DNA from: a virus
DNA length: 26,717 nucleotides
Strand: one strand, 5' to 3'
IMG/VR virus record: IMGVR_UViG_3300023180_005196
Location: 1 to 26,717 of that record
Shown: piece after piece, positions 6,455 through 21,959 of the stretch
How the letters are laid out: the number at the start of each line of letters is the position of its first letter
Position numbering within the stretch: the stretch's first letter is position 1
Position numbers and translations under genes: made by a program
The notes under the pieces: model-generated
The model's input: the letters and a program-made list of their open reading frames with translations, nothing else
What the model was told of the DNA's origin: nothing
The model's database searches: none

Positions 6455-6474
6455 TATGCTATAATAAACAAAAC
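6455..6474 (+). promoter_or_regulatory. Repeated promoter motif 1 (extended -10 or late-type)
   Basis: TATGCTATAATAAACAAAAC begins on the base after the stop codon of propeller gene 1 and ends 9 bases before the ATG of the oxygenase gene. It contains TGCTATAAT, a perfect extended -10 element, and also resembles the T4 late box TATAAATA with one A missing. No -35 hexamer is visible at 16-18 bases. The same 20 bases recur at 11771 and 19406, which argues for a functional element. Confidence 0.75.
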
Positions 6475-6483
6475 ATTGATTGT

Positions 6484-7101
6484 ATGAGACAGAATATTAT
6501 TGTTGTTGATGATTTTTATTCCAATCCAGAAGAGGTCAGGAACTTTGCACTGAATGCAGAGTTTCCTGATCCTGGTGAGGACTATACATATCCTGGAAGA
6601 AACTCAGAAGGTTCTTATTATTCAGAAGACATTCATAAGAAGTTTGAGGATCTTGCCAAAGAACCATTGATTCCTGCTGATAAGAATGGATACTTCCGTA
6701 TTTCATTAGAGAAAGATTCTTATAAACAAGACGTTCATGTGGATCCATCCTGGGAATGGGGTGCGGTGATTTATATGTCTGATCCAAAAGATTGTGTAGA
6801 TGAAGGTGGCACATCTTTTTGGAGACATAATAGTTTAAAGATGGAAAACATTCCTAAGACAGATTTTGAGGCACAGCATCACGGATGGCCAACGTATAAG
6901 GAATGTTGGTGGACGACTGTATATGGTGATGGTCTGGATAGAGATAAATGGACACGTTACTTTCTGTGCCCGATGAGATATAATCGTCTAGTATTGTTCA
7001 GAACTCATTTGTGGCACTCACATAATTTTAATTTTGGCGATACATTGGAAAATGGTCGTATGGTTCAGTTGTTCTTCTTTAATCCTGTGAAAGAATGGTA
7101 A
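6484..7101 (+). CDS. Putative 2OG-Fe(II) oxygenase, DUF6445-like
   Basis: 205 residues beginning RQNIIVVDDFYSNPEEVRNFA, an opening typical of small phage 2-oxoglutarate/iron oxygenases of the DUF6445 type. The putative metal triad is H85-x-D87 (in DVHVDPSWEWGAVIYMS) with a distal His at H178 or H180 (LWHSHNF); R192 (NGRMVQLFFF) would bind 2-oxoglutarate. The expected reaction is hydroxylation of a protein side chain or sugar; the substrate cannot be read. It is the first gene after promoter motif 1 and overlaps the sulfotransferase gene by 7 bases (ATGGTAA), so the two should be translated together. The leader would be only about 10 bases with no clear Shine-Dalgarno. A degenerate paralogue lies at 15139. 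Family assignment is from recalled motifs. Confidence 0.72.
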   Translation: MRQNIIVVDDFYSNPEEVRNFALNAEFPDPGEDYTYPGRNSEGSYYSEDIHKKFEDLAKEPLIPADKNGYFRISLEKDSYKQDVHVDPSWEWGAVIYMSDPKDCVDEGGTSFWRHNSLKMENIPKTDFEAQHHGWPTYKECWWTTVYGDGLDRDKWTRYFLCPMRYNRLVLFRTHLWHSHNFNFGDTLENGRMVQLFFFNPVKEW

Positions 7102-7931
7102 AAACATATCACTTTATGGCAGGTCTTCCTAGGTCTGGAAGCACCTTATTGAAAAGTTTAATAGATCAAAACCCAAATATTCACACAGAACCAGTCAGTT
7201 CTGTGATGGAATTGATGTATCATACCGAGGAATACTTTAAGCAATCTGAGCAATATCAAGGATACCCAAAACCACAGAACGCTCATAAGATTATTAGTAG
7301 TTTTATAGAGAACCAGTATTATGAGAGAGAAGAGGAGATAATTATTGATCACTGTCGTGCATGGTCAAATAATATTGAAAGAATAAAGACTTATATTACT
7401 CCCAATCCCAAAATCATTTGCCCTGTTCGTGATGTCGTAGAGGTATTAACTTCTTTCATCACAATGATTCATCGTAATTCTGATGAACTTAATTTTGTTG
7501 ATAAGGCACTGATGGATGGTGGGTTTACTGTAGATGATGATAATCGTTGTCAGTATTTAATGGGTAATGATGGCATTGTGGAGCAGGCACTATGGGCACA
7601 ATCTCAGGCATTCATTCGTCATGATGAGAAGCATTTGTTGATGGTTGAGTATGATGATCTAGTCAATATTCCAGAAGAAACGATGAGAAGAATCTATGAT
7701 TTCTTAGAGGTTGATTATTATCATCACGACTTTAATAATGTGCAGAACAATCACAGGGAAAGTGAGGACCAGTGGAACCTGAAAGATATGCATTATGTTC
7801 GTAACAAAGTCAAGAAGACATCAAAGAAACCTGAAGAGGTATTGTCCCCTTACATTCTAAATAAGTATAAGAAACTGGAATACTGGAAGTATCCCGATAG
7901 TCCTTATTTAATACAAGATGGCAGTAACTAA
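7095..7931 (+). CDS. Sulfotransferase family protein
   Basis: 278 residues. The N-terminus MAGLPRSGSTLLKSLI (G10-T17 core) is the 5'-phosphosulfate-binding loop of PAPS-dependent sulfotransferases. ICPVRDVVEVLTSFI holds R112 and S120, spaced by eight residues as in the 3'-phosphate-binding site. The predicted reaction is transfer of sulfate from PAPS to a hydroxyl, most likely on a glycan or on Tyr/Ser of a protein; the acceptor is unknown. It has no signal peptide or membrane segment, so it would act in the infected cell's cytoplasm. It overlaps the oxygenase by 7 bases and propeller gene 2 by 14 bases, so the three form one tight operon. A product hydroxylated by the neighbour could be the sulfated acceptor, but that is speculation. 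Confidence 0.85.
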   Translation: MVKTYHFMAGLPRSGSTLLKSLIDQNPNIHTEPVSSVMELMYHTEEYFKQSEQYQGYPKPQNAHKIISSFIENQYYEREEEIIIDHCRAWSNNIERIKTYITPNPKIICPVRDVVEVLTSFITMIHRNSDELNFVDKALMDGGFTVDDDNRCQYLMGNDGIVEQALWAQSQAFIRHDEKHLLMVEYDDLVNIPEETMRRIYDFLEVDYYHHDFNNVQNNHRESEDQWNLKDMHYVRNKVKKTSKKPEEVLSPYILNKYKKLEYWKYPDSPYLIQDGSN

Positions 7932-10900
7932 TAAAAGAGGAATATTTTCATTACTTGATGTAAGAGAAAGGCAAGGTCTTGGTGTTTGGTCTGTAAAGTC
8001 TGATGTGTGGACCTCATTTTTTGAGCAGGCACATCCTTTTGGTTACTTTGCTGGTGGTGCTCCTGCTGTATCAACTGTTAGACGAGTAGACTACTCTAAT
8101 GATACTTCAACATCATCACCGAAAGGGGCATTATTTACACCAAGAAGACGACATGCTGGGGTGGGTAATCAAAACTTTGGTTACTTTGCTGGTGGTGGCA
8201 ACACCTCTGCTCCTCTTTTCTCATCGGTAGACCGTATAGATTATTCCAATGACACCTCCCAAGCAACGGTGAGGGGTCCTTTGAGTGCAGCACAAGCTTA
8301 TAATGCAGCAGCTGGTAATTCTGATTTTGGATACTTTGCTAGTAATAGAACGATTTTCGAACGTATCAATTATAGTAATGATACTGTTGCGGCATCACAG
8401 AGGGCAAGCATAAGTCCAGCAAGGTACTTAGCTGCAACAGGTAATGCTTCTTATGGTTACTTTGGTGGTGGTATTGTTGCTGCTGCAGTATCAACAGTAG
8501 ACCGTATTGATTATGCTAATGACACTGCAGCGGCATTAGTAAAAGGACCATTGAATACTGGTAGAAGTTTATTAGCAGCAACAGGTAATGCTTCCTTTGG
8601 TTACTTTGGTGGTGGAATAGTCGGACCAGCATTTAGTGGAGAACAATCCATAGTAGACCGTGTAGATTACTCTAATGATACAGCAACGGCATCACCAAAG
8701 GGTCCACTGTCAAATACACCCGAAGGACTAGCAGCAACGGGTAGTTCTTCATTTGGATATTTTGCTGCAGGAATTGTAAGTCCTAGTTTAGAATATTCTA
8801 CAGTGAATCGTGTTGATTATTCTAATGATACTGCAACGGCATCAATACGAGGTCCTTTACATACATTAGGTTATCAGTTTGCGGCATCAAGTGCTCAGGC
8901 AAATGGAATTACCAAATCAACATTCTTTTCAAAAGGAAATGTATTAAAGGATATAGGATTTGATACTGGTTACTTTGGTGGTGGATTTGGACCAACATCA
9001 TCAACAGTAGACCGTATAAATTACTCTAATGATACTGCTACAGCATCAGCAAAAGGACCATTAAGTGCTGGTAGATATCACCATGCAGCAACAGGCAATG
9101 CTTCCTTTGGTTACTTTGGTGGTGGTGCTCCTGGTCCACTATCAACAGTAGACCGTATTGATTACTCTAATGATACTGCAACCGCATCACCAAAGGGACC
9201 ATTAAGTTCTGCTAGATATCGTTTAGCAGCAACAGGTAATCAATCTTATGGTTACTTTGGTGGTGGTAATGGTCCAGTATCAACAGTAGACCGTATTGAT
9301 TACTCCAATGACACTGCTACAGCATCACCAAAAGGACCATTAAGTCTTGCTAGACAATACGTGACAGCAACTGGCAATAGTTCCTTTGGTTACTTTGGTG
9401 GTGGTAATCCCGGTCCATTATCAACAGTAGACCGCATAGATTATTCTAACGACACTGAAACAGCATCACCTAAAGGTCCATTGAGTCTTGCTAGAAGTCT
9501 TTTAGCAGCAACAGGTAATGCTGATTTTGGTTACTTTGGTGGTAGCACATCAACAGTAGATCGCATAGATTATTCTAGTGATACTGCAACAGCATCAGTT
9601 AGAGGTCCATTAAGTGTTGCTAGATCTGGTTTAGCAGCAACAGGTAATAGTTCTTTTGGTTACTTTGGTGGTGGTGATCCTGGTTCATTCTCAACAGTAG
9701 ACCGTATAGATTACTCTAATGATACCGCAACAGCACCAGCAAAAGGACCATTGAGTGTTGCTAGATATCACCATGCAGCATCAAGTGCCAGAGCAAATGG
9801 ACTTGTAACTAAAACAATACCTCTTCCAATAAATTATGCGACTGGTAATGTTGCTCTTTCTAATGTTGGATACTGGTATAGAACAAATACAAATGTTGAT
9901 GCTGTAACCGCACTAGATTTTTCTAATGATACTTCTAATATTAATAATAGAAGTTCTCTTAATTTTCCTGGTACACCACCACTTGGAGCTTTTGGATATG
10001 GTGCGATAGGAAATACAGGATTTGGATATTTTGCTGATGCGAATAGTCCTCAAACTGGTGTAAGACGTATAGATTATGCAAATGATACTGCCGATGCTAT
10101 TGTGACAAGAAATTTAAATCATTCTGCAGGGGCGCAGATGGTTAGAGCAGGTGTTGGTAATAATGTGTATGGATATTTTACTAATACTATTGTATCAGCA
10201 TTAGAGCGTATTGATTATGCTAATGATTTAGTGACCGATAGAGGAGGATGTCTTTATCCTTTATCTCAAAGATCAGGAACTGGGAATTTGAATTTTGGTT
10301 ATATTATTGGTGGTTCTGGTACACCATCTCCATCTAGCTCGTGGTCATCAATAGAACGTATTGATTATTCTACTGATGGAGCAGCAGCATTAGTTAGAGG
10401 TCCATTGAGTAGTGGTGAGAAAAGATATGGTGGTGCATGTGGTAATGCTGATGGTGGATATTCAATGGGTGGTGATGTTGGCGGTATACCTGGTACAACA
10501 TCATCAGTAGAACGTATAGATTACTCTAATGATACTGTTGCTGCCGCACCAAAGGGTAATTTGAATGTAGATAGAGATAATTGTGCGGCTTCTGGCAATG
10601 CAGATTATGGGTATGTTTATGGTAATGGATATTCTCCGTCAGCGACGGTAACATATTTTGATCGTATTGATTACTCTAATGATACTGCAACAGCATCAAT
10701 AAGAGGGACTGTTGCTAATATCCCTGCTTCTCCTGGATCAGGGACAAGATGTCATGCCGCAATAGGTCCTAGAGATAATGCTCTCTATTCATTAAATCCT
10801 AATACTGGACAACTTCCATCATCTTTAGGACTTCCTATAGCAAGTCGTCCAAGATTTCCAGTCACGGCATTTGGTTATTTTATATCTGGATCTCCTTCCT

Positions 10901-11760
10901 CGGGAAAACTGGGTCGTATTAATTTTCTAAATGATACTGAGAATTCGGTAATAAGAGGATTATTTCCAAGTCCATCTTTCAATTCAAGAGCAGCTACTGG
11001 TAATAGTTCCTTTGGTTACTTTGGTGGTGGAACATGGACATCACAAGTAGATCGTATTGAATATACTAATGATATCGCATTGGCAGTAACAAGAGGTCCA
11101 TTAAATCAAGCAAAAAGCTATCTGGGAGCAACAGGTACTCAAGATTTTGGTTATTTTGGTGGAGGAGATACACCTGGTACTGGAGCAGTATCAACATTGG
11201 ATCGTATTGATTATTCCAATGATACTGCTGCGGGATTAGCAAGAGGTCCATTACTGGTCAGCAGAAATAGATTTGATGGTGTTGGTAATCAATCATTTGG
11301 TTACTTTGGTGGTGGAAATCCTGGTCCAAAATCATCAGTAGACCGTATCGATTATTCTAATGATACTGCATCATTGACTCCTGTCGGACCATTAACACGC
11401 AATATGTATTCGTATGCCGTAACGGGTAATTCATCAGGTGCTTATTTTACTGGTGGCACCCCTGGAACTTTATCATCAGTAGAGCGTATGGATTATTCTA
11501 ATGATACTGCCGCACCAACACCAAAGGGTCCATTATCCCGTGGTAATGTCGAACATGGAGCAACTGGAAATGAAAATTATGGATATTTTATTGGTGGTTT
11601 TCCTGGAAACACATCAACAATAGAAAGAATTGATTATGCCAATGATACCGTGGTAGCATCAATCAGAAGTTTTGTTGATGGTATGGAAACTGATGAATGC
11701 CAAGCAGTATCACCAACAGAAAATGGACTTCCACAATCTTCAGGAACCTTGATTCTTTAA
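7918..11760 (+). CDS. Giant kelch-like multi-propeller fibre protein, copy 2
   Basis: 1280 residues with the same plan as copy 1: cap 1-41 (RGIFSLLDVRERQ, then WSVKSDVW), then 24 kelch-like blades grouped 6+6+6+6 at residues 42-350, 351-650, 651-985 and 986-1280. Only the second propeller (blades 7-12) is close to the consensus. The first, third and fourth contain many altered blades, such as GYFASNRTIFERINYSND and GYWYRTNTNVDAVTALDFSN. Its three linkers differ from those shared by copies 1 and 3. It starts at ATG 7918 inside the end of the sulfotransferase gene (14-base overlap), which suggests translational coupling. It ends 10 bases before promoter motif 2. The likely role is a virion fibre with multiple binding faces; the binding partner is unknown. 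Confidence 0.85.
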   Translation: MAVTNKRGIFSLLDVRERQGLGVWSVKSDVWTSFFEQAHPFGYFAGGAPAVSTVRRVDYSNDTSTSSPKGALFTPRRRHAGVGNQNFGYFAGGGNTSAPLFSSVDRIDYSNDTSQATVRGPLSAAQAYNAAAGNSDFGYFASNRTIFERINYSNDTVAASQRASISPARYLAATGNASYGYFGGGIVAAAVSTVDRIDYANDTAAALVKGPLNTGRSLLAATGNASFGYFGGGIVGPAFSGEQSIVDRVDYSNDTATASPKGPLSNTPEGLAATGSSSFGYFAAGIVSPSLEYSTVNRVDYSNDTATASIRGPLHTLGYQFAASSAQANGITKSTFFSKGNVLKDIGFDTGYFGGGFGPTSSTVDRINYSNDTATASAKGPLSAGRYHHAATGNASFGYFGGGAPGPLSTVDRIDYSNDTATASPKGPLSSARYRLAATGNQSYGYFGGGNGPVSTVDRIDYSNDTATASPKGPLSLARQYVTATGNSSFGYFGGGNPGPLSTVDRIDYSNDTETASPKGPLSLARSLLAATGNADFGYFGGSTSTVDRIDYSSDTATASVRGPLSVARSGLAATGNSSFGYFGGGDPGSFSTVDRIDYSNDTATAPAKGPLSVARYHHAASSARANGLVTKTIPLPINYATGNVALSNVGYWYRTNTNVDAVTALDFSNDTSNINNRSSLNFPGTPPLGAFGYGAIGNTGFGYFADANSPQTGVRRIDYANDTADAIVTRNLNHSAGAQMVRAGVGNNVYGYFTNTIVSALERIDYANDLVTDRGGCLYPLSQRSGTGNLNFGYIIGGSGTPSPSSSWSSIERIDYSTDGAAALVRGPLSSGEKRYGGACGNADGGYSMGGDVGGIPGTTSSVERIDYSNDTVAAAPKGNLNVDRDNCAASGNADYGYVYGNGYSPSATVTYFDRIDYSNDTATASIRGTVANIPASPGSGTRCHAAIGPRDNALYSLNPNTGQLPSSLGLPIASRPRFPVTAFGYFISGSPSSGKLGRINFLNDTENSVIRGLFPSPSFNSRAATGNSSFGYFGGGTWTSQVDRIEYTNDIALAVTRGPLNQAKSYLGATGTQDFGYFGGGDTPGTGAVSTLDRIDYSNDTAAGLARGPLLVSRNRFDGVGNQSFGYFGGGNPGPKSSVDRIDYSNDTASLTPVGPLTRNMYSYAVTGNSSGAYFTGGTPGTLSSVERMDYSNDTAAPTPKGPLSRGNVEHGATGNENYGYFIGGFPGNTSTIERIDYANDTVVASIRSFVDGMETDECQAVSPTENGLPQSSGTLIL
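8041..11700 (+). repeat. 24 kelch-like blade repeats, copy 2 array
   Basis: In-frame tandem units of about 125-160 bases. The DNA of units 7-12 is nearly interchangeable with that of copies 1 and 3, while units 1-6 and especially 13-24 have diverged at both DNA and protein level. Groups begin at 8041, 8968, 9868 and 10873. Confidence 0.88.
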
Positions 11761-11770
11761 ATGCCATAAG

Positions 11771-11790
11771 TATGCTATAATAAACAAAAC
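11771..11790 (+). promoter_or_regulatory. Repeated promoter motif 2 (extended -10 or late-type)
   Basis: The 20-base motif is identical to those at 6455 and 19406. It lies 10 bases after propeller gene 2 and 11 bases before the ATG of the GT-A glycosyltransferase. TATAAT is at 11776-11781 with TG one base upstream. A TTGATT at 11749 is 21 bases from the -10 and so too far to be a good -35. Confidence 0.75.
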
Positions 11791-11801
11791 TGTTATTTGA
11801 T

Positions 11802-12455
11802 ATGGGTATAATGATTGCTCTCCCCTGTCATGGGGGAATTGTGAATGAGAAGACAACAATGAGTTTGTTCAATCTGGGCAAACTCTTAGTAAGAAATGGT
11901 ATTCCACATGGTCTTCTCACACAGGCAAACTCTTCCTTGATTACTCATGGAAGGTCTAAGTGTGCAAACTTTTTTATCAACAACACAGATCATGAATATC
12001 TGTTCTTTCTTGATAGTGATATTGGATTTAATCCAGAAGATGTGTTAAAATTATTGAGTCATAATGAAGACATCGTTTCGGGTACATATCCAATGAAGAC
12101 AATACCGATTCGATATTGTGTTGATGTTCTTCAACCAGAAGAACGTAAAGGTGATTTACTCAAGGTTGGTGGTAATGGAATGGGATTTGTAATGATTCAT
12201 CGTAATGTCTTTACTGATATTGCACGGAAGTTTCCATACCTTAAATACACACCATCAACAAGGGATAGTAACCATCCACCATCAGAAGCAGAGATGAATA
12301 ACTCATATCATTACTTTGCAGAAGAAAGAATTGGTGATAGTTTCGCATCGGAGGACAAAAGTTTCTTTTATCGTGCTAGAATGATAGGATATAAACATTG
12401 GCTAGATACTACAATCAAACTACAACACGTTGGTTCACACGTTTTTGCTGAATAA
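11802..12455 (+). CDS. GT-A fold glycosyltransferase (GT2/Anp1-like)
   Basis: 217 residues. MIALPCHGGIVNEKTTMSL opens like a GT-A domain. LFFLDSDIGFNPED contains the metal and nucleotide-sugar binding DxD (D71-S72-D73), followed by IVSGTYPMK and a GNGMGFVMIHRNVF segment. Near the end are an acidic pair (SEDKSFFYRA, possible catalytic base region) and LQHVGSHVF, whose His could complete metal binding. It is predicted to transfer a sugar from a nucleotide sugar to a phage or host acceptor in the cytoplasm. It is the first gene of the operon after promoter motif 2, with 2 bases before the GT4 gene. It is shorter than typical GT2 enzymes, as phage versions often are. Sugar and acceptor cannot be read. 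Confidence 0.8.
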   Translation: MGIMIALPCHGGIVNEKTTMSLFNLGKLLVRNGIPHGLLTQANSSLITHGRSKCANFFINNTDHEYLFFLDSDIGFNPEDVLKLLSHNEDIVSGTYPMKTIPIRYCVDVLQPEERKGDLLKVGGNGMGFVMIHRNVFTDIARKFPYLKYTPSTRDSNHPPSEAEMNNSYHYFAEERIGDSFASEDKSFFYRARMIGYKHWLDTTIKLQHVGSHVFAE

Positions 12456-12457
12456 TT

Positions 12458-14212
12458 ATGAAATCTGGAGCAACTGAAAGTTCATTTTATTATCTTTCAC
12501 AACACTATGAGTTTCCTGAAGATGTAGAGGTATCACATCTACCAGAGGAACTTAAAAAATCTAATAAACCATATAAGGTTTTGTGGGCACATCATTCCTA
12601 CGATCAACCAGCACTTCTAAATTTCAATCATGAGACTGTAAATCATATTGTTACTCCTTCTCATTGGGCAAAGGAGCAACTGATTAAGTTTCATAAGGTT
12701 CCAAAGAATAAAATCACTGTCATTTCAAATGGTGTGAGTGACATCTTCACCTACTCTGAAAATAAAACGAAGACTTTTATTCATACTTCTATCCCTTATA
12801 AAGGATTGGAGTTGATGCCTGCCATTATACAAAGGATTCATCAAAGACATCCTGATGCGAAGTTCAAAATCTTTTCATCAATGTCCCTCTATGGTCCTCT
12901 GAATGATCCTTATATTGAATTGTATGAAGATCTGAAGAAACTGCCCAATGTAGAATACTCTGCCGCAGTAGATCAAGAAGAACTTGTTACTGCCTATCAG
13001 GATGCTGCCTTCTTTATTCATCCAAACATTTGGGAAGAGACATTCTGTGTCTCTATGGCAGAGGCAATGAAGTCTGGTGCCTATCCAATTATTACAAACA
13101 TTGGAGCACTGTCGGAAGTTGCTGGTGAGAACTTTGCCTCTGTTGTTCCTTTGGATGGAACCCGAACAACCAAGGGATATGAGGTTACAGAAAAGTTTCT
13201 AAATACTTTCGCAGAGGTTTGTTGTACTGCTCTAGATTATTTTGAAGGAGACAGAACATATTATAATCAAATCTCAAAATCACTTTCCAATCATATTTCA
13301 CAAAAGTGTGATTGGAAGAAAGTGGCACAACAATGGAAAAAACTGATTACACGAATTACTAGTGGAGAACCAATGACTAACGAAAACACTGCACTGTCTT
13401 ATACTCCCGTCACTTCTGAGCAGGCAGTGATGGATGATGATTATCTTCAGCAGGCATTTGCCAATGTTCTGAGATGGGAAGAGAGTGATAAGGAACTTGC
13501 ACAAGGTAGAACTAACTTCCAGTTGGAGAAGTTTGCTCTGCTTGAGACTCATACACTTCCCGTTGCCTTTGAGAATACTCTCAAGTCTCGTCGTCAGATG
13601 GCAGAGGGTTATATGTATAAACTCATTGAGATGAAGAAAAAGGTCCGTGAGTTTGAATTCAAGTGGGCAGGTAAGGACCGTAGCCAACCAATCATGTGGG
13701 AAACTGGTGGACCTGGTGGTGGTACGAAAGAACTGTGTTGGTTTGATCTGGATGAACTGTCACTGACTCATTATCTGAAGTCTTCTGAACTTGAGATTCG
13801 TGACCGTTTGCACCAGATGGAGCATCTGGATAAGATTCTTGCCAAACTTGTAGAAGAAAATGGTGGTAAACCAGTCAGTAGAGAGCAGTTCCTGGAAGGT
13901 GACGCTCTGTATTGGGAGCGTCGTTTTGCTGATCAGGCAATGGATGAAATGGTTGCGGCACAGACTGGTATCTCTATTGGTAACCTTCACAGTATGCGTC
14001 GTGCTTCTGCACCTTCTATCGTTGACCCAAGGAACACTCTTCCTGAGGGTTACATGCCTCTGAATAAGATTCTTGAAAGTCCTCAAGGTAGAATGGACTT
14101 CCTCAATGATCTTCAGAAGAAAGTTCTCACTGGTATTCAAGAAGTTACTGGTGAAAATCTTGGAATGATTACTGGTAGCACCGAGGAGCAGAAGAAACTG
14201 GAAGGTAACTGA
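12458..14212 (+). CDS. GT4-like glycosyltransferase fused to a C-terminal domain of unknown function
   Basis: 584 residues. Residues 1-305 form a GT-B glycosyltransferase of group 1/GT4: VISNGVSDIF at the domain hinge, SIPYKGLELM as a nucleotide-sugar domain opening, and HPNIWEETFCVSMAEAM with the EX7E pair E194/E202. Residues 306-584 are unrelated to any GT4 part I recognise. They are charged, mostly helical, with Glu/Lys-rich heptad-like stretches (RRQMAEGYMYKLIEMKKK, EIRDRLHQMEHLDKILAKLV) and a WETGGPGGGTKELCWFDLDE segment. I recall sequences like the second half as separate cyanophage genes, but cannot confirm it. The junction at M306 has its own Shine-Dalgarno. Five bases (plus the ATG of the next gene) separate it from the exostosin-like enzyme. 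The glycosyltransferase call is firm; the tail's role is unknown. Confidence 0.8.
   Translation: MKSGATESSFYYLSQHYEFPEDVEVSHLPEELKKSNKPYKVLWAHHSYDQPALLNFNHETVNHIVTPSHWAKEQLIKFHKVPKNKITVISNGVSDIFTYSENKTKTFIHTSIPYKGLELMPAIIQRIHQRHPDAKFKIFSSMSLYGPLNDPYIELYEDLKKLPNVEYSAAVDQEELVTAYQDAAFFIHPNIWEETFCVSMAEAMKSGAYPIITNIGALSEVAGENFASVVPLDGTRTTKGYEVTEKFLNTFAEVCCTALDYFEGDRTYYNQISKSLSNHISQKCDWKKVAQQWKKLITRITSGEPMTNENTALSYTPVTSEQAVMDDDYLQQAFANVLRWEESDKELAQGRTNFQLEKFALLETHTLPVAFENTLKSRRQMAEGYMYKLIEMKKKVREFEFKWAGKDRSQPIMWETGGPGGGTKELCWFDLDELSLTHYLKSSELEIRDRLHQMEHLDKILAKLVEENGGKPVSREQFLEGDALYWERRFADQAMDEMVAAQTGISIGNLHSMRRASAPSIVDPRNTLPEGYMPLNKILESPQGRMDFLNDLQKKVLTGIQEVTGENLGMITGSTEEQKKLEGN
13364..13375 (+). 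promoter_or_regulatory. Possible internal ribosome binding site and start within the GT4 fusion gene
   Basis: GGAGAACCAATG: a GGAG Shine-Dalgarno five bases before an in-frame ATG (13373) lies exactly at the junction between the glycosyltransferase domain and the C-terminal domain. Initiation here would give a separate 279-residue protein beginning MTNENTALSYTP. It may be a relic of a gene fusion or a working second start. Confidence 0.5.
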
Positions 14213-14216
14213 TCCT

Positions 14217-15134
14217 ATGGAAATTCTTTGCCAACAAAAATTTGCGGATCTTCATGACGGTGATAGAATATTCTATTCAAATATCGCAAGATGTTATGAG
14301 ACATTTAAAGAAATTGAAAAATTAGATCATGAAGTGATTTTAATTACTGGAAATGGACCAGAATTCGTTGGTCATTATGAAGATCCAAATGCAAAATATA
14401 ATGAAGCATATCAGTATTTGAATGATATTTTTCATAACCACCCTAAAAATATAAAATATTGGTTTGCTCAGAATAACATTACAAAAAAGGATAATGTTAT
14501 TCCCATACCACTTGGAATGAGAAATGGTATTCGCAGTTCGGTCAGACCAGATCATGTGACGGGTCATGATTGGGTTGTTGAGCAACATTTAATGTTGGCA
14601 GAAACATATAAAAGTAAAAAACCAGATCCCCAAAAACTTGTATATGTAAATTATTGTGATAGACCAGAACATAGGAGAACGATAGCAAAGTTATGTAATG
14701 ATTATTTGAATTCTCCTTTTCAGTATGCTAATTTAAAATATGAACTTTATCTTTCAAATATTTTAAATCATGAATGTGCCATGTCTCCAATTGGAGTTGG
14801 TGTTGACTGTTATAGAACATATGAAATTCTCTATTGTGATAGAATACCTGTTACAATGAAGGTAGGAAGACACGGTGTAGTATACAGTGATAGTACACCT
14901 CCTTCTTGGACGGGGACGCATAATGCTCCTCCACAGGATGAAGAATATCCTCTTTATACTGAGATATATTCTAAACTTCCAATTGTAATGCTAGACTCTC
15001 TTGAAGAATTAAAAGATAAAACACACTTGAAAAAATTAGTTGATGAACAAAAGAATAAAGAGTGGGATAGAAATCTTATAGATTTTAATTACTGGAAGAA
15101 TATGATTTATGAACACAAGGAACGTTTAAATTAG
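14217..15134 (+). CDS. Exostosin-like (GT47-type) glycosyltransferase
   Basis: 305 residues. The segment from about residue 145 (KLVYVNYCDRPEHRRTI) and especially residues about 185-213 (NHECAMSPIGVGVDCYRTYE followed by ILYCDRIPV) match the exostosin/fucosyltransferase-like GT-B C-terminal domain, where the conserved SPxGxGxDxxRxxE binds the nucleotide sugar. The N-terminal half (FYSNIARCYETFKEIEKL, then VIPIPLGMRNG) fits the acceptor domain. The predicted reaction is glycosyl transfer; donor and acceptor are unknown. It lies between the GT4 fusion and the degenerate oxygenase in the same operon, so three different glycosyltransferases could build a short glycan in sequence. No membrane anchor, unlike eukaryotic exostosins. 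Confidence 0.75.
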   Translation: MEILCQQKFADLHDGDRIFYSNIARCYETFKEIEKLDHEVILITGNGPEFVGHYEDPNAKYNEAYQYLNDIFHNHPKNIKYWFAQNNITKKDNVIPIPLGMRNGIRSSVRPDHVTGHDWVVEQHLMLAETYKSKKPDPQKLVYVNYCDRPEHRRTIAKLCNDYLNSPFQYANLKYELYLSNILNHECAMSPIGVGVDCYRTYEILYCDRIPVTMKVGRHGVVYSDSTPPSWTGTHNAPPQDEEYPLYTEIYSKLPIVMLDSLEELKDKTHLKKLVDEQKNKEWDRNLIDFNYWKNMIYEHKERLN

Positions 15135-15138
15135 AAAC

Positions 15139-15684
15139 ATGAATCAGAAGTTTGTAATTGTGGATGATTTTTATGATGTTGCACACCAATATCATAAAAG
15201 TTTTTTTGAAAACCAGTGTATGATAACTGAAGAGACAACTCAAAAATTATCTTATATTTTGGGTTGTCCTATTCAGATTGTAGAAGCATTTAATGAAGTA
15301 GAAGGAGAGGGTAGTAATAATTCTATCACTGCTAATGTTGGATGTGATTGGATTGCCGTAATTTATCTGACAATGCCATCTGATTGTGTGTCAAAAAAAG
15401 GTTTGAGTTTTTATACACACAAGAAAATAGGACTTGATAGTTTCCCAAATGAATATGCTCGTCAAATTAATGGTTGGCAGAACATGGATGATATTGTTAA
15501 GTCATTTAATGTTGATGATAGAAATGATTGGGAGGAATATGCCAGTGTATTTGTGAAATATAATCGTTGTATTATCTTCAGTGCAGATTTGTGGCATTCT
15601 TATGGAATGGGTTTTGGTAATGAAATAAATAACTCAATGATATACCAGAAACTGTTGATACAACATGGCAAGAGGAATATTTAG
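15139..15684 (+). CDS. Degenerate DUF6445-like oxygenase paralogue (probable pseudoenzyme)
   Basis: 181 residues. The opening QKFVIVDDFYDVAHQYHKSF and the blocks DWIAVIYLTMPSDCVSKKG, YNRCIIFSADLWHSYGMGFG align with the oxygenase at 6484 (EWGAVIYMSDPKDCVDEGG, YNRLVLFRTHLWHSHNFNFG). The catalytic residues do not: H85-x-D87 corresponds to T64-A-N66, and the 2OG-binding R192 corresponds to S166; only the distal His (H153) remains. The reading frame is intact with no stop, so this looks like loss of catalysis with retention of the fold rather than a dying gene. It overlaps propeller gene 3 by 20 bases and is the last small gene before it, as the sulfotransferase is before propeller gene 2. It may act as a binding or assembly partner of the propeller (speculative). 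Confidence 0.65.
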   Translation: MNQKFVIVDDFYDVAHQYHKSFFENQCMITEETTQKLSYILGCPIQIVEAFNEVEGEGSNNSITANVGCDWIAVIYLTMPSDCVSKKGLSFYTHKKIGLDSFPNEYARQINGWQNMDDIVKSFNVDDRNDWEEYASVFVKYNRCIIFSADLWHSYGMGFGNEINNSMIYQKLLIQHGKRNI

Positions 15685-18600
15685 ACTAAAGCAAGTTTAT
15701 GAAGAGCAGTTGTCTGGAAACTGGACTGTTAAACCTGATGTATGGTTAAGTCCGAGTCCATTTTTTGGATCTTGGGATTATGGTTACTTTGGTGGTGGTT
15801 CTCCTAGTAGAACAACAGTAGACCGTATTGATTATTCTAATGACACGGCAACGGCATCACCTAAAGGTCCATTAAGTGCCGGTAGAAATTACATATCAGC
15901 AACGGGTAATAGTTCTTTTGGTTACTTTGGTGGTGGTCAAACTCCTGCTAATGTATCAACAGTAGACCGTATAGATTATACTAATGACACCGCAACAGCA
16001 TCACCTAAGGGACCATTAAGTGCTGCTGGAGCAGCACGAGGAGCAACAGGTAATGGTTCTTATGGTTATTTTGGTGGTGGTGTTCCTGGTCCACTATCAA
16101 CAGTGGACCGTATAGATTACTCAAACGACACCGCAACAGCATCACTTAAAGGACCATTAAGTCTTGCTAGATATTCATTAGCAGCAACAGGTAATAGTTC
16201 CTTTGGTTACTTTGGTGGTGGTCGGGATTCTAGTCCTAGTACAGTATCAACAGTAGACCGTATAGATTACTCTAATGACACAGCAACAGCATCACCTAAG
16301 GGACCATTAAGTGTTGCTAGATATCGTTTAGCAGCAACAGGTAATTCTTCCTTTGGTTACTTTGGTGGTGGTGGAACTTTAGCAGTAGACCGTATAGATT
16401 ACTCTAATGATACCGCAACAGCATCACCTAAAGGTCCATTGAGTGCTGCTAGAATATACTTAGCAGCAACAGGTAATAGTTCTTTTGGTTACTTTGGTGG
16501 TGGTTTTCCTGGATTCTCAACAGTAGACCGTATAGATTACTCTAATGATACAGCAACAGCATCAGTAAGAGGTCCACTAACTCTTGCTAGAAGTGGTTTA
16601 GCAGCATCAAGTGCCAAAGCAAATGCAATCACTGATTTAACCTTATTGCCAGCATCAAGCGACCAAAGACCTAATGTAGTACCACAAGGAACTGACTTTG
16701 GTTACTTTGGTGGTGGTCAAACAGTATCAACAGTAGACCGTATAGATTACTCTAATGACACTGCAACAGCATCACCTAAAGGACCATTAAGTCTTGCTAG
16801 AAATTTTTTAGCAGCAACAGGTAATAGTTCTTTTGGTTACTTTGGTGGTGGTGCTCCTGCTCCAGTAAAATCAACAATAGACCGCATCGATTACTCTAAT
16901 GATAGTGCAACAGCATCACCTAAAGGTCCATTAAGTTCTGCTAGATATCGTTTAGCAGCAACAAGTAATAGTTCTTTTGGTTACTTTGGTGGTGGCAGTA
17001 CTCCTTCTGTAGTATCAACAGTAGACCGTATAGATTATTCTAATGACACTGCAACAGCATCACCTAAGGGACCATTAAATACTGGTAGAAGAGATTTAGC
17101 AGCAACTGGTAATAGTTCTTATGGTTACTTTGGTGGTGGTGGAAATCTAGGGCAAACGATAGTAGACCGTATTGATTATTCTAATGATACCGCAACAGCA
17201 TCACCAAAAGGTCCATTAAGTGTTGCTAGGTATCGTTTAGCAGCAACGGGTAACGATTCTTATGGTTGGTTTGGTGGTGGAGAGGCTCCAGGACCAACAA
17301 ATTTTTCAGTAGTAGACCGTATAGATTACTCTAATGATACCGCAACAGCATCACCAAAAGGACCATTAAGTACTTCTACAAGACAAGCACCGGCAGCAAC
17401 AGGTAATAGTTCTTTTGGTTACTTTGGTGGTGGTGATGATGGTGGATCTAGTTCAACAGTAGACCGTATCGACTACTCTAATGACACCGCAACAGCATCA
17501 CCCAAAGGACCATTAAGTCAAGGTAGAGAACGTTTAGCAGCATCAAGTTCCAGAGCAAATGCAATACCACTCAAAGGACCTGGTGTCCTGGAAGTAGCAG
17601 TGAGATTCAGTGATGGAACTCTTGAGACTTACAATACCGGTTACTTTGGAGGTGGTAATCCTAGTCCAAGATCAACCGTAGACCGCATAGATTACTCTAA
17701 CGACACCGCAATAGCATCACCTAAAGGTCCATTAAGTGCTGGTAGATATGATTTAGCAGCAACAGGTAATAGTTCTTATGGTTACTTTGGTGGTGGTAGA
17801 ACTCCTTCTACAGTATCAACAGTAGATCGTGTAACCTATTCTAATGATACTGCAACAGCATCACCAAAGGGACCATTAAGTCTTGCTAGATATCAATTAG
17901 CAGCAACAGGTAACAGTTCTTTTGGTTACTTTGGTGGTGGTTATAGTCCTGCTTCAGTATCAACAGTAGACCGTATTGATTACTCTAATGACACAGCAAC
18001 AGCATCACCTAAGGGACCATTAAGTGCTGCTGGAGGATACTCTGGAGCAACAGGTAATAGTTCTTTTGGATACTTTGGTGGTGGTGCTCCTGGTTTAAGA
18101 TCAACAGTAGACCTTATTGATTACTCTAATGACACTGCAACAGCATCACCTAAAGGACCATTAAGTCTTGCTAGAAATTCTTTAGCAGCAACAGGTAATA
18201 GTTCTTTTGGTTACTTTGGTGGTGGTGGTCCGGGTCCATTATCGACAGTAGACCGTATAGATTATTCTAATGACACTGCAACAGCATCACCAAAGGGACC
18301 ATTGAGTGTTATTAGCAGTGTATTAGCAGCAACAGGTAATAGTTCTTTTGGTTACTTTGGTGGTGGTTTTGGTCCATTATCGACAGTAGACCGTATAGAT
18401 TATTCTAATGACACTGCAACAGCATCACCTAAGGGAATATTAAGTGTTGCTAGACTGCGTTTAGCAGCATCAAGTGCCAGAGCCAACGGATTTGCTGCAA
18501 TCGGTCCATCAGTAACAGCAAACGTTTCAAGATTTGGTCCCGCAGGATATGGTTACTTTGGTGGTGGTAGTGGTAATAGTTCAGTAGTTAATAGAATTAA

Positions 18601-19405
18601 CTTTACTAATGATACTGCTACAGCAATACGTCTTGGTGATTTGTCTGATGGTAGAGATAAACTAGCAGCAACAGGTAACAGTTCTTTTGGTTACTTTGGT
18701 GGTGGAAAAAATGGTACAGTAGTGGATCGTGTTGATTATTCAAATGATACTCTGTCAGCGAAGGGTAATTTGACTACTCCTGGTAGAGAAAATCTCAAGG
18801 CAGTTGGTAATGCTAATTTTGGATATTTTACTGGCGGACAGGATTCTCCTGCTACTTATAGAAGTGATGTAGATCGCATTGACTATTCCAGCGATACTTC
18901 AACGGCATTAGATAAGGGTCCATTGACTGCTAATAGAGCTGAACACTCGGCAACTGGTAATCAAAACTTTGGTTATTTTGCTGGTGGACTACCTGGAGTT
19001 GGATCAAAAATAGAAAGAATTGATTATTCTGATGACACTGTAACCGCATTATCTAAAGGTTTTATTAGTACTCCTAGTAGAATTAGACTTGCGGCAACAG
19101 GTAATGCTAACTTTGGATATATTGGGGGAGGTGATCCTGGATTGTCAATAGTAGATCGTATTGATTATTCTAATGATACTGCTACGGCATCACCTAAGGG
19201 TCCATTGAGTGCTGGTAAATCATATTTGTCTGCAACGGGAAATCAAAACTTTGGGTATTGGATGGGAGGAAGTCCTAATGCATCTACTATAGACCGTCTT
19301 GATTATTCTAATGATACTACAGCTGCAACACCTAAAGGTCTATTGGCAAATGGAAATACAAAATCCGCAGCAGTTTCTGCAGGAGAATATGGACTTCCTA
19401 ACTAG
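15665..19405 (+). CDS. Giant kelch-like multi-propeller fibre protein, copy 3
   Basis: 1246 residues: cap 1-39 (RGIFRLKQVYEEQLSGNW, then TVKPDVWLSPSPF) followed by 24 blades grouped at residues 40-345, 346-658, 659-962 and 963-1246. The first three propellers are almost pure consensus, the most homogeneous of the three genes; the fourth has diverged. Linkers 1, 2 and 3 match those of copy 1 in the same order, with exact DNA identity over 77 bases in linker 2 and 51 bases in linker 3. It starts at ATG 15665, 20 bases inside the end of the preceding gene. Its stop codon directly abuts promoter motif 3. The role proposed is the same as for copies 1 and 2: a long propeller chain exposed on the virion; not proven. 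Confidence 0.85.
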   Translation: MARGIFRLKQVYEEQLSGNWTVKPDVWLSPSPFFGSWDYGYFGGGSPSRTTVDRIDYSNDTATASPKGPLSAGRNYISATGNSSFGYFGGGQTPANVSTVDRIDYTNDTATASPKGPLSAAGAARGATGNGSYGYFGGGVPGPLSTVDRIDYSNDTATASLKGPLSLARYSLAATGNSSFGYFGGGRDSSPSTVSTVDRIDYSNDTATASPKGPLSVARYRLAATGNSSFGYFGGGGTLAVDRIDYSNDTATASPKGPLSAARIYLAATGNSSFGYFGGGFPGFSTVDRIDYSNDTATASVRGPLTLARSGLAASSAKANAITDLTLLPASSDQRPNVVPQGTDFGYFGGGQTVSTVDRIDYSNDTATASPKGPLSLARNFLAATGNSSFGYFGGGAPAPVKSTIDRIDYSNDSATASPKGPLSSARYRLAATSNSSFGYFGGGSTPSVVSTVDRIDYSNDTATASPKGPLNTGRRDLAATGNSSYGYFGGGGNLGQTIVDRIDYSNDTATASPKGPLSVARYRLAATGNDSYGWFGGGEAPGPTNFSVVDRIDYSNDTATASPKGPLSTSTRQAPAATGNSSFGYFGGGDDGGSSSTVDRIDYSNDTATASPKGPLSQGRERLAASSSRANAIPLKGPGVLEVAVRFSDGTLETYNTGYFGGGNPSPRSTVDRIDYSNDTAIASPKGPLSAGRYDLAATGNSSYGYFGGGRTPSTVSTVDRVTYSNDTATASPKGPLSLARYQLAATGNSSFGYFGGGYSPASVSTVDRIDYSNDTATASPKGPLSAAGGYSGATGNSSFGYFGGGAPGLRSTVDLIDYSNDTATASPKGPLSLARNSLAATGNSSFGYFGGGGPGPLSTVDRIDYSNDTATASPKGPLSVISSVLAATGNSSFGYFGGGFGPLSTVDRIDYSNDTATASPKGILSVARLRLAASSARANGFAAIGPSVTANVSRFGPAGYGYFGGGSGNSSVVNRINFTNDTATAIRLGDLSDGRDKLAATGNSSFGYFGGGKNGTVVDRVDYSNDTLSAKGNLTTPGRENLKAVGNANFGYFTGGQDSPATYRSDVDRIDYSSDTSTALDKGPLTANRAEHSATGNQNFGYFAGGLPGVGSKIERIDYSDDTVTALSKGFISTPSRIRLAATGNANFGYIGGGDPGLSIVDRIDYSNDTATASPKGPLSAGKSYLSATGNQNFGYWMGGSPNASTIDRLDYSNDTTAATPKGLLANGNTKSAAVSAGEYGLPN
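15782..19370 (+). repeat. 24 kelch-like blade repeats, copy 3 array
   Basis: In-frame tandem units of about 129-153 bases, with groups beginning at 15782, 16700, 17639 and 18551. Units 1-18 are highly homogenised at DNA level; the phrase gcaacaggtaatagttcttt occurs many times. Units 19-24 are divergent and match the final units of the other copies only at protein level. Confidence 0.9.
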
Positions 19406-19425
19406 TATGCTATAATAAACAAAAC
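19406..19425 (+). promoter_or_regulatory. Repeated promoter motif 3 (extended -10 or late-type)
   Basis: The third exact copy of the 20-base motif starts on the base after the stop codon of propeller gene 3 and ends 9 bases before the ATG of the prolyl-hydroxylase-like gene. TATAAT is at 19411-19416. There is no -35 hexamer at the right spacing. Confidence 0.75.
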
Positions 19426-19434
19426 ACTGATAAT

Positions 19435-20097
19435 ATGATTAATAATCCACTGACTCATATTCTGATCCGACCCAATGTAATCTCTCCCGAAGGTATTCGG
19501 GAGATGGTTGACCACATTAAGAGATCACCTTGTGAAGATCTTTCTGTATTTGATGCGGAGACTACAAATAGAACTGGTGAAACATCATGGCAGGTTGATA
19601 AGAAGACAAGAGATACTCAGATTGTCCCTATGGGAGATTTATTTCCTAAAATTGAGCAACTTCTTCGTCATGCCGTAAAGGAAATCATCAATCCTTTTTA
19701 TGGTATTGAAGTATCCAGCAGTGAAATACCACAAGTTCTTTCTTATGGTGTTGGTGGTCACTATAAACCTCACATTGATGGGGAGAGTATCTGGGTCACA
19801 CCAAAGGGAGAACACATCTGGAAGAAATCTACGGATAGAGACATCTCCTTGGTATTCTATCTGAATGATGATTTTGAGGGTGGTGATTTTATTTTCCCAG
19901 AACATCATATTCGTGTGAGACCCGAACCAGGTATGATGGTTTGTTTCCCATCCAGTCATCATTACATGCACGGAGTAGAACCAGTAACCAGAGGAAAGAG
20001 ATATAGTATTGTGACCTGGGCTACGGTAAAAGGACAACCTAGTATGGATGAGATTAATAATCAGTTGTCTCAACAGTATGGAGTTCCTGTAATTTAA
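19435..20097 (+). CDS. Prolyl-4-hydroxylase-like 2OG-Fe(II) oxygenase
   Basis: 220 residues with the full P4H-type motif set: GGHYKPHIDGES supplies H113-x-D115, FYLNDDFEGGDFIFPE is the conserved strand pair after it, SSHHYMHGVEPVTRGKRYSI supplies the distal H179 and the 2OG-binding R189. The enzyme would hydroxylate a protein side chain (proline in the classical family) or a small molecule, using 2-oxoglutarate, O2 and Fe(II). It is unrelated at close range to the DUF6445-like oxygenases in this window. It is the first gene behind promoter motif 3 and stands 3 bases before the carbamoyltransferase, so both are one transcript. Such oxygenases are common in marine cyanophages; targets are not established. 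Confidence 0.85.
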   Translation: MINNPLTHILIRPNVISPEGIREMVDHIKRSPCEDLSVFDAETTNRTGETSWQVDKKTRDTQIVPMGDLFPKIEQLLRHAVKEIINPFYGIEVSSSEIPQVLSYGVGGHYKPHIDGESIWVTPKGEHIWKKSTDRDISLVFYLNDDFEGGDFIFPEHHIRVRPEPGMMVCFPSSHHYMHGVEPVTRGKRYSIVTWATVKGQPSMDEINNQLSQQYGVPVI

Positions 20098-20100
20098 ATT

Positions 20101-21522
20101 ATGGCAAATATTTTAGGATTGAACTTTGGACACGATGGATCCGTGTGCCTTGTTAAAGATGGTAGGTTGGAGTTTGCCATTGCAACAGAAAGAATTTCTA
20201 AGATTAAGAAGCAGCAAGGATTCACGGATGAGATTATTAATTATGTTTTAGATTCTTGTCGTATAACACTTGATGATATTGATTGTGTTGCCACAAATGA
20301 TTTTAAGCAAGAAGTCTTTGGTAATCAGTATCTGGTAGATAAGATAGTCATTCAAGGCAAAGAGTTTAAGTGCTATATTATTTCACATCACTTGTCTCAC
20401 TGTGCCTCTGCATATTACACAAGTCCTTATGATAAAGCATACTGTTTTAGTATGGACTGTAGTATGGGAAAACCAGAAGCAAATTCATTGATTGCTTATG
20501 GTGAAGGTAAAAAACTTATGGCAATGTACTGTCCAGCAGAGATGGTTGGTGTTTTGTATGGAGAAGTCACTGAAAAATTAGGATTGGGACCAGCACTCCA
20601 TAAGGCAGGAACAACAATGGGATTGGCATCTTATGGAACACCTTTTGATTTTGATTATCAATCCTATACTGATGAGATTAAACATAAGATGAATGTGGCA
20701 GCATCTGTTCAGGATTTATTTGAGAAAAAGGTTCTGAATGTATTGAGTGAACTTGATGATAAGACAGACAATCTTTGTTTATCTGGTGGGTCATTCTTGA
20801 ATTGTAACGCCAACTCCAAGGTTGTGATGTATTCTAAGTTCAAGAATGTTCATCACTTCCCTGCTTGTGGTGATGATGGAACCTCTGTTGGGTCTGCACT
20901 CTATGTTGCACATCATATTCTTGGGGAATCAAGACATGATTATCAACAGAAAGATCTATGTTATACTGGTAGAGAGTATCAGTCTCAAACGCCAGACTAT
21001 GAATACATAGCAAAGCAACTTGCCGATGGCAAGATTATTGGATTCTTTCAGGGTAGATCTGAGTTTGGTCCAAGAGCACTAGGTAATCGTTCTATTCTTG
21101 CCGACCCAAGAAACTTTCACAATCGTGAACTAATCAATCACGTTGTCAAGAATAGAGAATGGTTCCGCCCTTTTGCTCCTGTTACATTAGAAGAGTGTTA
21201 TCAGGACTGGTTTGATTTTCCTATTCCTAGTCCCTACATGCTTTATACTGCACAGGTCAAGCAACCAGAAAAGATACCAGCAGTCACTCACGTTGATGGG
21301 TCGGCTAGATTTCAAACAGCCACAGAAGAATCTAACAAACATTACTACGAGATTATCAAGGCATTTGGAAATCTGACAGGAGTGCCAGTCTTACTTAATA
21401 CAAGTTTGAATGGTAATGGACAACCTATTCTTGAAACGGAAGAAGACGCAAGAGAGTTTTACAAGAACTCCAATCTTGATATGATGGTTGTTAATGGTAT
21501 AATACATACAAATAAAGTGTAA
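20101..21522 (+). CDS. Carbamoyltransferase, NodU/TobZ family
   Basis: 473 residues. ILGLNFGHDGSVCLVKDGRL is the N-terminal ASKHA-type phosphate-binding opening (H11, D12). SHHLSHCASAYY (H96, H97, H100) is the family His cluster, LSGGSFLNCNANSKV a conserved sugar-kinase-like block, and GRSEFGPRALGNRSILADPR starts the YrdC-like C-terminal domain; WFRPFAPV and LLNTSLNGNGQPI follow as expected. The enzyme makes carbamoyl-adenylate from carbamoyl phosphate and ATP and transfers the carbamoyl group to a hydroxyl, in known cases on a sugar or antibiotic. It is slightly shorter than typical (about 550-600). In this setting the acceptor may be a sugar laid down by the nearby glycosyltransferases (inference). 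The promoter of the next gene lies inside its 3' end. Confidence 0.88.
   Translation: MANILGLNFGHDGSVCLVKDGRLEFAIATERISKIKKQQGFTDEIINYVLDSCRITLDDIDCVATNDFKQEVFGNQYLVDKIVIQGKEFKCYIISHHLSHCASAYYTSPYDKAYCFSMDCSMGKPEANSLIAYGEGKKLMAMYCPAEMVGVLYGEVTEKLGLGPALHKAGTTMGLASYGTPFDFDYQSYTDEIKHKMNVAASVQDLFEKKVLNVLSELDDKTDNLCLSGGSFLNCNANSKVVMYSKFKNVHHFPACGDDGTSVGSALYVAHHILGESRHDYQQKDLCYTGREYQSQTPDYEYIAKQLADGKIIGFFQGRSEFGPRALGNRSILADPRNFHNRELINHVVKNREWFRPFAPVTLEECYQDWFDFPIPSPYMLYTAQVKQPEKIPAVTHVDGSARFQTATEESNKHYYEIIKAFGNLTGVPVLLNTSLNGNGQPILETEEDAREFYKNSNLDMMVVNGIIHTNKV
21476..21503 (+). promoter_or_regulatory. Sigma70-like promoter for the glutaredoxin gene
   Basis: TTGATA (21476-21481), a 16-base spacer, and TATAAT (21498-21503) with TG one base upstream form a near-consensus host-type promoter inside the carbamoyltransferase 3' end. 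The glutaredoxin ATG is 22 bases past the -10. Unlike the motif ahead of the decoration genes, this one has a -35 hexamer. Confidence 0.65.
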
Positions 21523-21525
21523 CCT

Positions 21526-21768
21526 ATGAATTTTGCCGTATACTCAAAAGACGATTGCCCTTACTGCAAAAAAGTCAAAACCGTATTGGAGTTGACAGGT
21601 AGTAACTTTGTGGTCTATAATCTTGGTGAGCATTTTACCAAGGAAGAATTCTATGCCGAGTTTGGGAAAGGTTCTACATTCCCTCAGGTAGTATGTGACG
21701 ATAAAAAATTGGGAGGTTCTGTTGACACAATCAAATTCCTCAAAGAACAACAAGTCATCAAGTCCTAA
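21526..21768 (+). CDS. Glutaredoxin
   Basis: 80 residues, the full length of a small glutaredoxin. The dithiol active site is C11-P-Y-C14 (DDCPYCKKVK). TFPQVV carries the cis-proline (P53), and LGGSVDTIKF the glycine pair that contacts glutathione. It reduces disulfides using glutathione and, in T4-like phages, commonly serves ribonucleotide reductase, linking it to ThyX downstream in nucleotide supply. It starts at ATG 21526, 3 bases after the carbamoyltransferase gene, and its own promoter lies at 21476. Its stop codon is directly followed by a CATAAATA late-type box. Confidence 0.9.
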   Translation: MNFAVYSKDDCPYCKKVKTVLELTGSNFVVYNLGEHFTKEEFYAEFGKGSTFPQVVCDDKKLGGSVDTIKFLKEQQVIKS

Positions 21769-21776
21769 CATAAATA
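21769..21776 (+). promoter_or_regulatory. T4-type late promoter box
   Basis: CATAAATA, one base from the T4 late promoter consensus TATAAATA, directly follows the glutaredoxin stop. The gap to the next gene (21769-21959, 191 bases) holds this box, a 5-bp inverted repeat ACCAC/GTGGT near 21786-21802, and an open frame without a convincing start. The box is short, so chance cannot be excluded. Confidence 0.4.
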
Positions 21777-21959
21777 AACCAGATAACCACATAAATCGTG
21801 GTATTGAGTTTCTACTTAATGGAGGTAAAAGAAAGCAGACTTATCCATTTCACATCATCTTCGAAAAGATGGTTTGCTTTCTGAATAGGGAAGTTACTAT
21901 CTATTTCGAATTTTCCTTTAAGACAAGGAAGAGAAAAGTAATTCCCAGGAGAAAGAAAA

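Follow-up and report, generated by a model that had tools for sequence, protein, structure and literature searches.

Several viruses are known to modify their own virion proteins. In published accounts, PBCV-1 A075L (family GT114) is a xylosyltransferase that builds the capsid N-glycan, and STIV A197 is an essential viral glycosyltransferase of GT-A fold that has been suggested to glycosylate the coat protein B345. The Mimivirus collagen lysyl hydroxylase/glucosyltransferase L230 couples 2-oxoglutarate (2OG) oxygenase and glycosyltransferase activities, which act one after the other on repeat proteins of the virus itself. Mycobacteriophage virion proteins, both capsid and tail tube, are glycosylated (Freeman et al. 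2023, cited in PMC12619734), and jumbo phage CBB carries kelch propellers, of which CBB_552 was found in the virion by mass spectrometry (further sources: PMC5259590, PMC9614988, PMC10551542, PMC11571054). Here we describe a gene block in the viral record IMGVR_UViG_3300023180_005196 (26,717 bp; our window spans the whole record) in which three genes for predicted kelch-propeller proteins (rep1 to rep3), which are probably tail-associated adhesins, are interleaved with genes for oxygenases or their relatives (oxA to oxC), a sulfotransferase (sulf) and glycosyltransferases (gtA, gt4, exo), followed by a carbamoyltransferase (carb; Table 1). The best explanation, which we hold at about even confidence, is that these enzymes decorate the kelch adhesins encoded beside them.

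The block resembles each described system in part. As in PBCV-1, viral glycosyltransferases would serve a virion protein of the virus itself, and the sequences of exo and A075L are related; unlike PBCV-1, the window derives from a phage, its putative acceptors are adhesins rather than capsid, and sulfation and hydroxylation are added. STIV supplies the only solved relative of gtA, but as a single enzyme of an archaeal virus whose acceptor is unproven there too. L230 is one fused protein acting on collagen and built from other enzyme families. The excerpted mycobacteriophage account makes no mention of kelch adhesins, sulfotransferases or oxygenases, and that of CBB reports no modifying enzymes alongside its kelch proteins. 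Our search of the open-access literature, including cyanophage fibres with glycosyltransferases, returned no description of such a cassette. Virus-encoded modification of virion proteins is already known; as far as that search shows, the combination of kelch proteins, hydroxylases, a sulfotransferase and exchangeable glycan enzymes is an undescribed variant.

Enzyme genes travel with kelch-propeller genes

We scanned viral contigs independently with sulf, oxC, the gt4 C-terminal domain, gtA and oxA, and in addition with rep3. The total, to which four named records and the window itself contribute, is 396 loci in 127 dereplicated groups, whose genes were labelled with hidden Markov models built from the window proteins. 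Each locus scan comprises the best 80 of 112–526 confirmed relatives, so the counts favour close relatives, and frequencies of rep genes refer only to loci of at least 15 kb (31/50 groups for sulf, 16/51 for oxC, 27/40 for the C-terminal domain, 36/44 for gtA and 31/45 for oxA). At that length, every group in the gtA scan carried a rep gene (36/36), with gt4 in 35 and sulf in 30, and rep was present in all 27 groups of the C-terminal-domain scan. At any length, no group in the gtA scan (0/44) and one in the C-terminal-domain scan (1/40; L235, a short locus) was without a kelch gene. Ten of the 45 oxA groups had none; all ten are remote relatives that rank last in that scan. A sulf gene missing from a cassette may still lie elsewhere in the genome.

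The association extends to immediate neighbours. Across 92 dereplicated groups (163 loci), the core enzyme genes adjoin a propeller gene in roughly 53–85% of cases: oxC in 65/82, oxB in 22/26, oxA in 25/32, gtA in 30/41, sulf in 42/66 and gt4 in 37/70. The corresponding counts are 3/556 for unlabelled open reading frames (ORFs), 0/49 for glutaredoxin genes and 6/47 for the fibre-like gene g0. Hypervariable fibre regions gather cargo, and exo (whose one match in the 396 loci is the window itself) and carb look like such cargo, but the contrast in adjacency and the recurrence of the set across lineages make it hardly credible that unrelated functions were simply brought together in a hypervariable region; for the core set, chance gathering is strongly disfavoured. 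carb adjoined a propeller gene in 0/21 cases and lay within three genes of the rep–oxC junction in 16/60, which places it outside the interleaved part.

The gene set is retained through extensive reordering. Relatives fall into a marine type, two freshwater orders between which the sulf and gt4 modules are exchanged, and a lineage of tandem single-propeller proteins; their gene orders include gtA-rep-sulf-rep-gt4-rep-oxC, gtA-rep-gt4-rep-sulf-rep-oxC and gtA-oxA-x-sulf-rep-rep-gt4-oxC-x-rep-rep-rep-rep. The marine single-cell phage contig AG-345-L05 (g0-rep-oxA-sulf-rep-gtA-gt4-oxB-rep-oxC) has the window order minus exo only, with propeller proteins just ~24–30% identical to those of the window. 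Its record is classified as Kyanoviridae, and a psbA-like reading frame picked out by eye points to a cyanobacterial host. Many of the carriers seem to be uncultured T4 relatives that infect cyanobacteria; S-SKS1, culturable on Synechococcus WH7803, is the single isolate in which the cassette turned up. A set that outlasts such reshuffling is a functional one. Because the enzymes accompany the propeller proteins across lineages and gene orders, and because their closest solved relatives either modify proteins or are viral glycosyltransferases connected with capsid glycans, we regard a dedicated association of the two as strong.

In other contigs, gt4 contains or adjoins FkbM methyltransferase and GT17 domains, and genes for a DegT aminotransferase and a GNAT acetyltransferase are found between oxA and sulf; the exchangeable cargo is glycan-building chemistry. 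The sulf scan also contains a second sulf type, found among other glycan genes and fibres without kelch genes, and 12 of the 92 groups have sulf and neither rep nor oxC. In four loci (L064:7074-12740, L062, L074 and L084), a kelch-free arrangement combines gtA-type, GT2-like and 300-aa unknown genes with sulf of this second type, adjoining other fibre genes, some of them collagen-like by eye.

We propose that T4-like cyanophages use the block as a cassette to mature their virion adhesins. A single stretch of genes would yield three paralogous kelch proteins and a fixed set of soluble enzymes. After synthesis and before assembly, the adhesins, or a glycan that they bear, would be hydroxylated by oxA and oxC, glycosylated by gtA, gt4 and exchangeable cargo (for instance the A075L-like exo), and sulfated by sulf. 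The altered chemistry of the binding surface would then change receptor choice or resistance to decoys. The gene set, its conserved linkage, the kelch fold (by prediction) and the conservation of catalytic or cofactor residues in sulf, oxA and oxC are direct results; the virion location, the acceptor, the order of reactions and the biological effect we infer. Action on the adhesins is the most likely role of the enzymes, judging by their gene neighbours and by what their relatives do. Provided that the kelch proteins are virion proteins, modifying enzymes are here encoded together with virion protein genes. If the proposal is right, aquatic cyanobacterial T4-like phages mature their adhesins with dedicated enzymes, so that host range could depend on chemistry invisible in the protein sequence; hydroxylation and sulfation join the known phage virion modifications; and 2OG oxygenases, sulfotransferases and glycosyltransferases in such phages would be structural maturation genes rather than auxiliary metabolism.

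Propellers, enzymes and their possible acceptors

The rep proteins are predicted to be kelch beta-propellers. Each has ~1,250 residues and about four six-bladed propellers, built from a ~47-residue repeat unit with the motifs GYFGGG and DRIDYSNDT; in rep3, the spacing of the GYF motif groups the units as four sets of six. An AlphaFold2 (AF2) model of rep3 residues 1–345 from 32 sequences (predicted local distance difference test score, pLDDT, 76.7; predicted template modelling score, pTM, 0.76) places a helix at residues 8–16 ahead of the ring, and matches Keap1 and the designed six-bladed kelch protein SAKe6 with Z scores of 35–37 at a root-mean-square deviation of ~2 over ~267 residues. Blade columns 19–20, 22–24 and 39–44 are hypervariable between blades and are likely binding loops. 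Variants of this architecture occur among relatives. Loci L234, L236, L240, L242 and L368–L372 form the lineage with many single-propeller proteins (~305–337 aa) and the same enzyme set. The protein at L056:1041-2999 has a sulf-type N-terminus, with an unrelated stretch of ~300 residues before its kelch part. In S-SKS1 (L002:1663-6884), oxC and several of the propeller genes seem to be broken up into neighbouring ORFs, through either error or real decay, and one propeller ORF of 455 aa lacks an annotation.

Two of the three oxygenase-family proteins keep their catalytic residues. In oxC, whose closest solved relatives are prolyl 3- and 4-hydroxylases (1.5e-9 to 8.1e-9), the iron triad and 2OG-binding residue H113, D115, H179 and R189 are present in 80/80 copies. 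oxA keeps His85 and Asp87 in 31/32 copies each and His178 and Arg192 in 32/32; its family, DUF6445, matched no solved structure. In the paralogue oxB, the first HxD position is never His and the second never Asp (28/28), the distal His alone being kept. Loss of these ligands in every copy suggests that oxB is a conserved, probable pseudoenzyme, perhaps acting as a partner subunit.

Sulf is closest among solved structures to the protein-tyrosine sulfotransferases TPST1/2 (8.4e-10 to 5.7e-6), with a CurM-type domain next (1.8e-5). It keeps the PRSGST loop that binds 3'-phosphoadenosine-5'-phosphosulfate (PAPS), together with the R...S pair for the 3'-phosphate: R13 in 66/67 copies (one row is gapped) and G15, T17, R112 and S120 in 67/67. 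For gtA, D71xD73 is invariant in alignment A9. A structural search with the gt4 model listed GT-B enzymes among its 50 rows. Its all-helical C-terminal domain (window 13373-14209) has its own gene in freshwater relatives (L034:14467-15303), occurs without the GT4 part in S-SKS1 (L002:820-1653) and weakly matches phrog_1409; in cellular genomes, 72 pattern matches yielded 0 confirmed relatives. By our own reading of its alignment to A075L (numbering offset 3), exo keeps the residues aligned with the published donor contacts Asn148, Arg158, Gly203, Arg208 and Glu211, while the catalytic base Asp73 falls outside the aligned stretch and Asn202 pairs with Val. The original prediction had listed two oxygenase types, sulfation, three glycosyltransferase folds and carbamoylation within 6484–21522. 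All of these classes are present on one strand, between or after the three repeat genes, and the three folds stand on the A197, GT4 and A075L relationships. Its oxygenases reduce to oxA and oxC, oxB having lost its iron ligands, and carb, a clear carbamoyltransferase by Pfam, never sits beside a propeller gene.

Several observations weigh against self-decoration. The virion location of the kelch proteins is itself only probable. TPST enzymes carry their catalytic Glu in a GEETR motif; in the 67 sulf copies, that position is P/T/A and V/N/S/I/T, never Glu. Blade tyrosine column 4 is Phe in 96–98% of two freshwater groups that bear sulf, the GYF tyrosine is Trp in one freshwater group, and N-D-T decays. 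Since the candidate blade columns vary among relatives that retain the enzymes, they point to no particular acceptor residue. Structural matches of gt4 mix polysaccharide and small-molecule enzymes with adhesin O-glycosyltransferases. Adhesins of the sulf type are kept without sulf in the cassette in L305, L314, L315 and L319, and L046 has sulf without its usual partner rep. Beyond their first residues, freshwater rep proteins do not resemble each other more closely when they share an upstream enzyme.

Two specific acceptor sites were considered and rejected: tyrosine sulfation at D-Y-S-N-D, where D-Y becomes D-F in the two sulf-bearing groups, and N-D-T as a glycosylation sequon, which is lost in related cassettes. 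N-D-T is more likely a structural element of the kelch turn. Earlier support drawn from a recurrent N-D-T motif and from blade tyrosines thus falls away, as other residues take their place in relatives that still carry the enzymes. Of the proposed system that coats its own fibres, what survives is a toolkit that travels with the propellers, shorn of the N-D-T argument, carbamoylation and one hydroxylase.

The enzymes could instead change the host surface (lipopolysaccharide (LPS) core, capsule or their precursors), blocking superinfection or keeping progeny from sticking to debris, and their place beside the adhesins would reflect the need for receptor and adhesin chemistry to change in step. 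The gt4 fold is common to polysaccharide and LPS enzymes, carb resembles NodU and sulf weakly NoeE, two enzymes that modify small signal molecules, and distant sulf relatives sit among glycan genes by fibre genes without kelch proteins. We nonetheless think this account unlikely. The cassette enzymes come without a membrane protein or a lipid-linked step, and no typical membrane span was found in them (highest 19-residue hydrophobic mean 1.61, in sulf). Enzyme and adhesin genes alternate one by one and overlap, and the viral relatives of exo and gtA belong to viruses with glycosylated capsids.

A further alternative keeps the targets in the virion and makes the kelch genes mere neighbours, the enzymes modifying other virion proteins such as g0 or collagen-like fibres. 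Genes of the g0 type often stand directly upstream of the cassette in relatives, and the kelch-free sulf relatives adjoin other fibre genes. The g0 gene adjoins kelch genes in those 6/47 cases only, however, and the enzymes follow the kelch genes through reordering; we judge this reading rather improbable.

N-terminal tags of the adhesins

The rep proteins begin with short tags that correlate with the enzyme gene upstream. Among freshwater contigs, rep proteins that follow the same enzyme in different contigs share an identity of 0.77 over residues 1–6 and 0.62 over residues 7–12, against 0.51 and 0.41 for those that follow different enzymes in one contig. Farther along, past about residue 19, proteins that share an enzyme show identity close to background, and those of one genome are mostly more alike. 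From the first 15 residues, the upstream enzyme is predicted correctly in 102/116 cases (within-contig shuffles: mean 50, maximum 66, 0/300 as high), whereas the last 15 give no prediction of the downstream one (47.5/116 against 42.9 in shuffles). At 45% of identical tag residues the codons differ synonymously, suggesting that the constraint acts on the protein.

Such a pattern would fit an N-terminal leader helix of the kind known from peptide natural products, through which each adhesin would recruit an enzyme of its own; in favour of this reading stand the predictive first 15 residues, the uninformative last 15 and the codon differences. Out of sample, the upstream enzyme was predicted in only 43 of the 72 new rep proteins, among 102, that have a labelled upstream gene. 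L305/L307/L314 and L315/L316/L318 share one enzyme order and lack sulf in the cassette, yet their tag classes have changed places; in L045 the other tag follows sulf. The pattern is less clean in the marine set, and one lineage has tandem rep genes with distinct N-termini and no enzyme between them. Linkage by descent and paralogue-specific assembly account for the tag pattern, leaving recruitment by the helix quite improbable. An enzyme-docking leader was accordingly rejected as the principal interpretation: strong in the first set, it was weakened by the out-of-sample result and the swapped or lost pairs. Most likely, the tags identify adhesin paralogues for assembly and are kept near a given enzyme by linkage.

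A more elaborate form of self-decoration, in which three chemically distinct adhesins share one kelch scaffold, are told apart by their short N-terminal helices and are each matured by a separate enzyme (sulfotransferase, glycosyltransferase or oxygenase), with sulfation of a phage protein, or of a glycan that it carries, among the reactions, seems doubtful. Were it correct, swapping enzyme–adhesin modules between phages would alter receptor chemistry while leaving the propeller fold unchanged. Across rep N-termini (for example window 15665-15715), helix classes separate the paralogues, whereas the rest of the protein has been homogenised genome by genome. N-termini of the single-propeller lineage look glycine-rich rather than helical.

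Gene layout and minor features of the window

The block starts before position 6484, at rep1 (2657), and its true start is probably the fibre-like ORF g0 that precedes rep1. Neighbouring genes overlap at oxA/sulf (7 bp), sulf/rep2 (14 bp) and oxB/rep3 (20 bp). Downstream of carb lie a glutaredoxin gene and then DUF6433, thyX and PhoH-type genes.

Table 1. Genes of the block, with window coordinates and supporting matches.
Gene	Assignment	Coordinates	Strand	Support
g0	Fibre-like protein, 5' end cut by contig edge	2..2644	+	No Pfam match; phrog_28668 (unknown function) sole match
rep1	Predicted kelch propeller, probable adhesin; N-terminal tag VFGLETLYRLQ	2657..6454	+	phrog_19111 1.9e-204
oxA	DUF6445 2OG/Fe oxygenase-like; H85xD87, H178, R192	6484..7101	+	Pfam 2.5e-13
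sulf	PAPS-dependent sulfotransferase	7095..7931	+	Sulfotransfer_3 6.6e-20; TPST1 8.4e-10
rep2	Predicted kelch propeller, probable adhesin; tag IFSLLDVRERQ	7918..11760	+	Repeat units
gtA	GT-A glycosyltransferase	11802..12455	+	STIV A197 4.6e-8; phrog_1574; no Pfam match
gt4	GT4 (GT-B) domain ~1-300 fused to all-helical C-terminal domain ~306-584	12458..14212	+	
exo	GT114/A075L-like glycosyltransferase, accessory cargo	14217..15134	+	A075L 1.6e-7; RXYLT1_C 1.1e-4
oxB	DUF6445 paralogue without HxD iron ligands, probable pseudoenzyme	15139..15684	+	Pfam; alignment
rep3	Predicted kelch propeller, probable adhesin; four six-bladed propellers (24 blades), N-terminal helix	15665..19405	+	Motif spacing; AF2; Keap1-like
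oxC	Prolyl-hydroxylase-like 2OG-Fe(II) oxygenase; last cassette gene in relatives	19435..20097	+	2OG-FeII_Oxy_3 1.8e-18
carb	NodU/TobZ-type O-carbamoyltransferase, accessory, 3' of interleaved part	20101..21522	+	Carbam_trans C 4.2e-64, N 1.5e-36

Searches of the window for Rfam families and for tRNAs found none. The motif TATAAATA, which we take to be the late-promoter motif, matched once in the window against 2.5 expected, and ATAAATA four times against 8.2 expected. Sigma-70-like sites in 2500–22000 numbered 43, below the 64.1 of shuffled sequence. Three strong ones, scoring 10, 11 and 12 of 12, lie at 21458–21621, across the end of carb and the start of the glutaredoxin gene, and suggest that a new transcription unit begins there.

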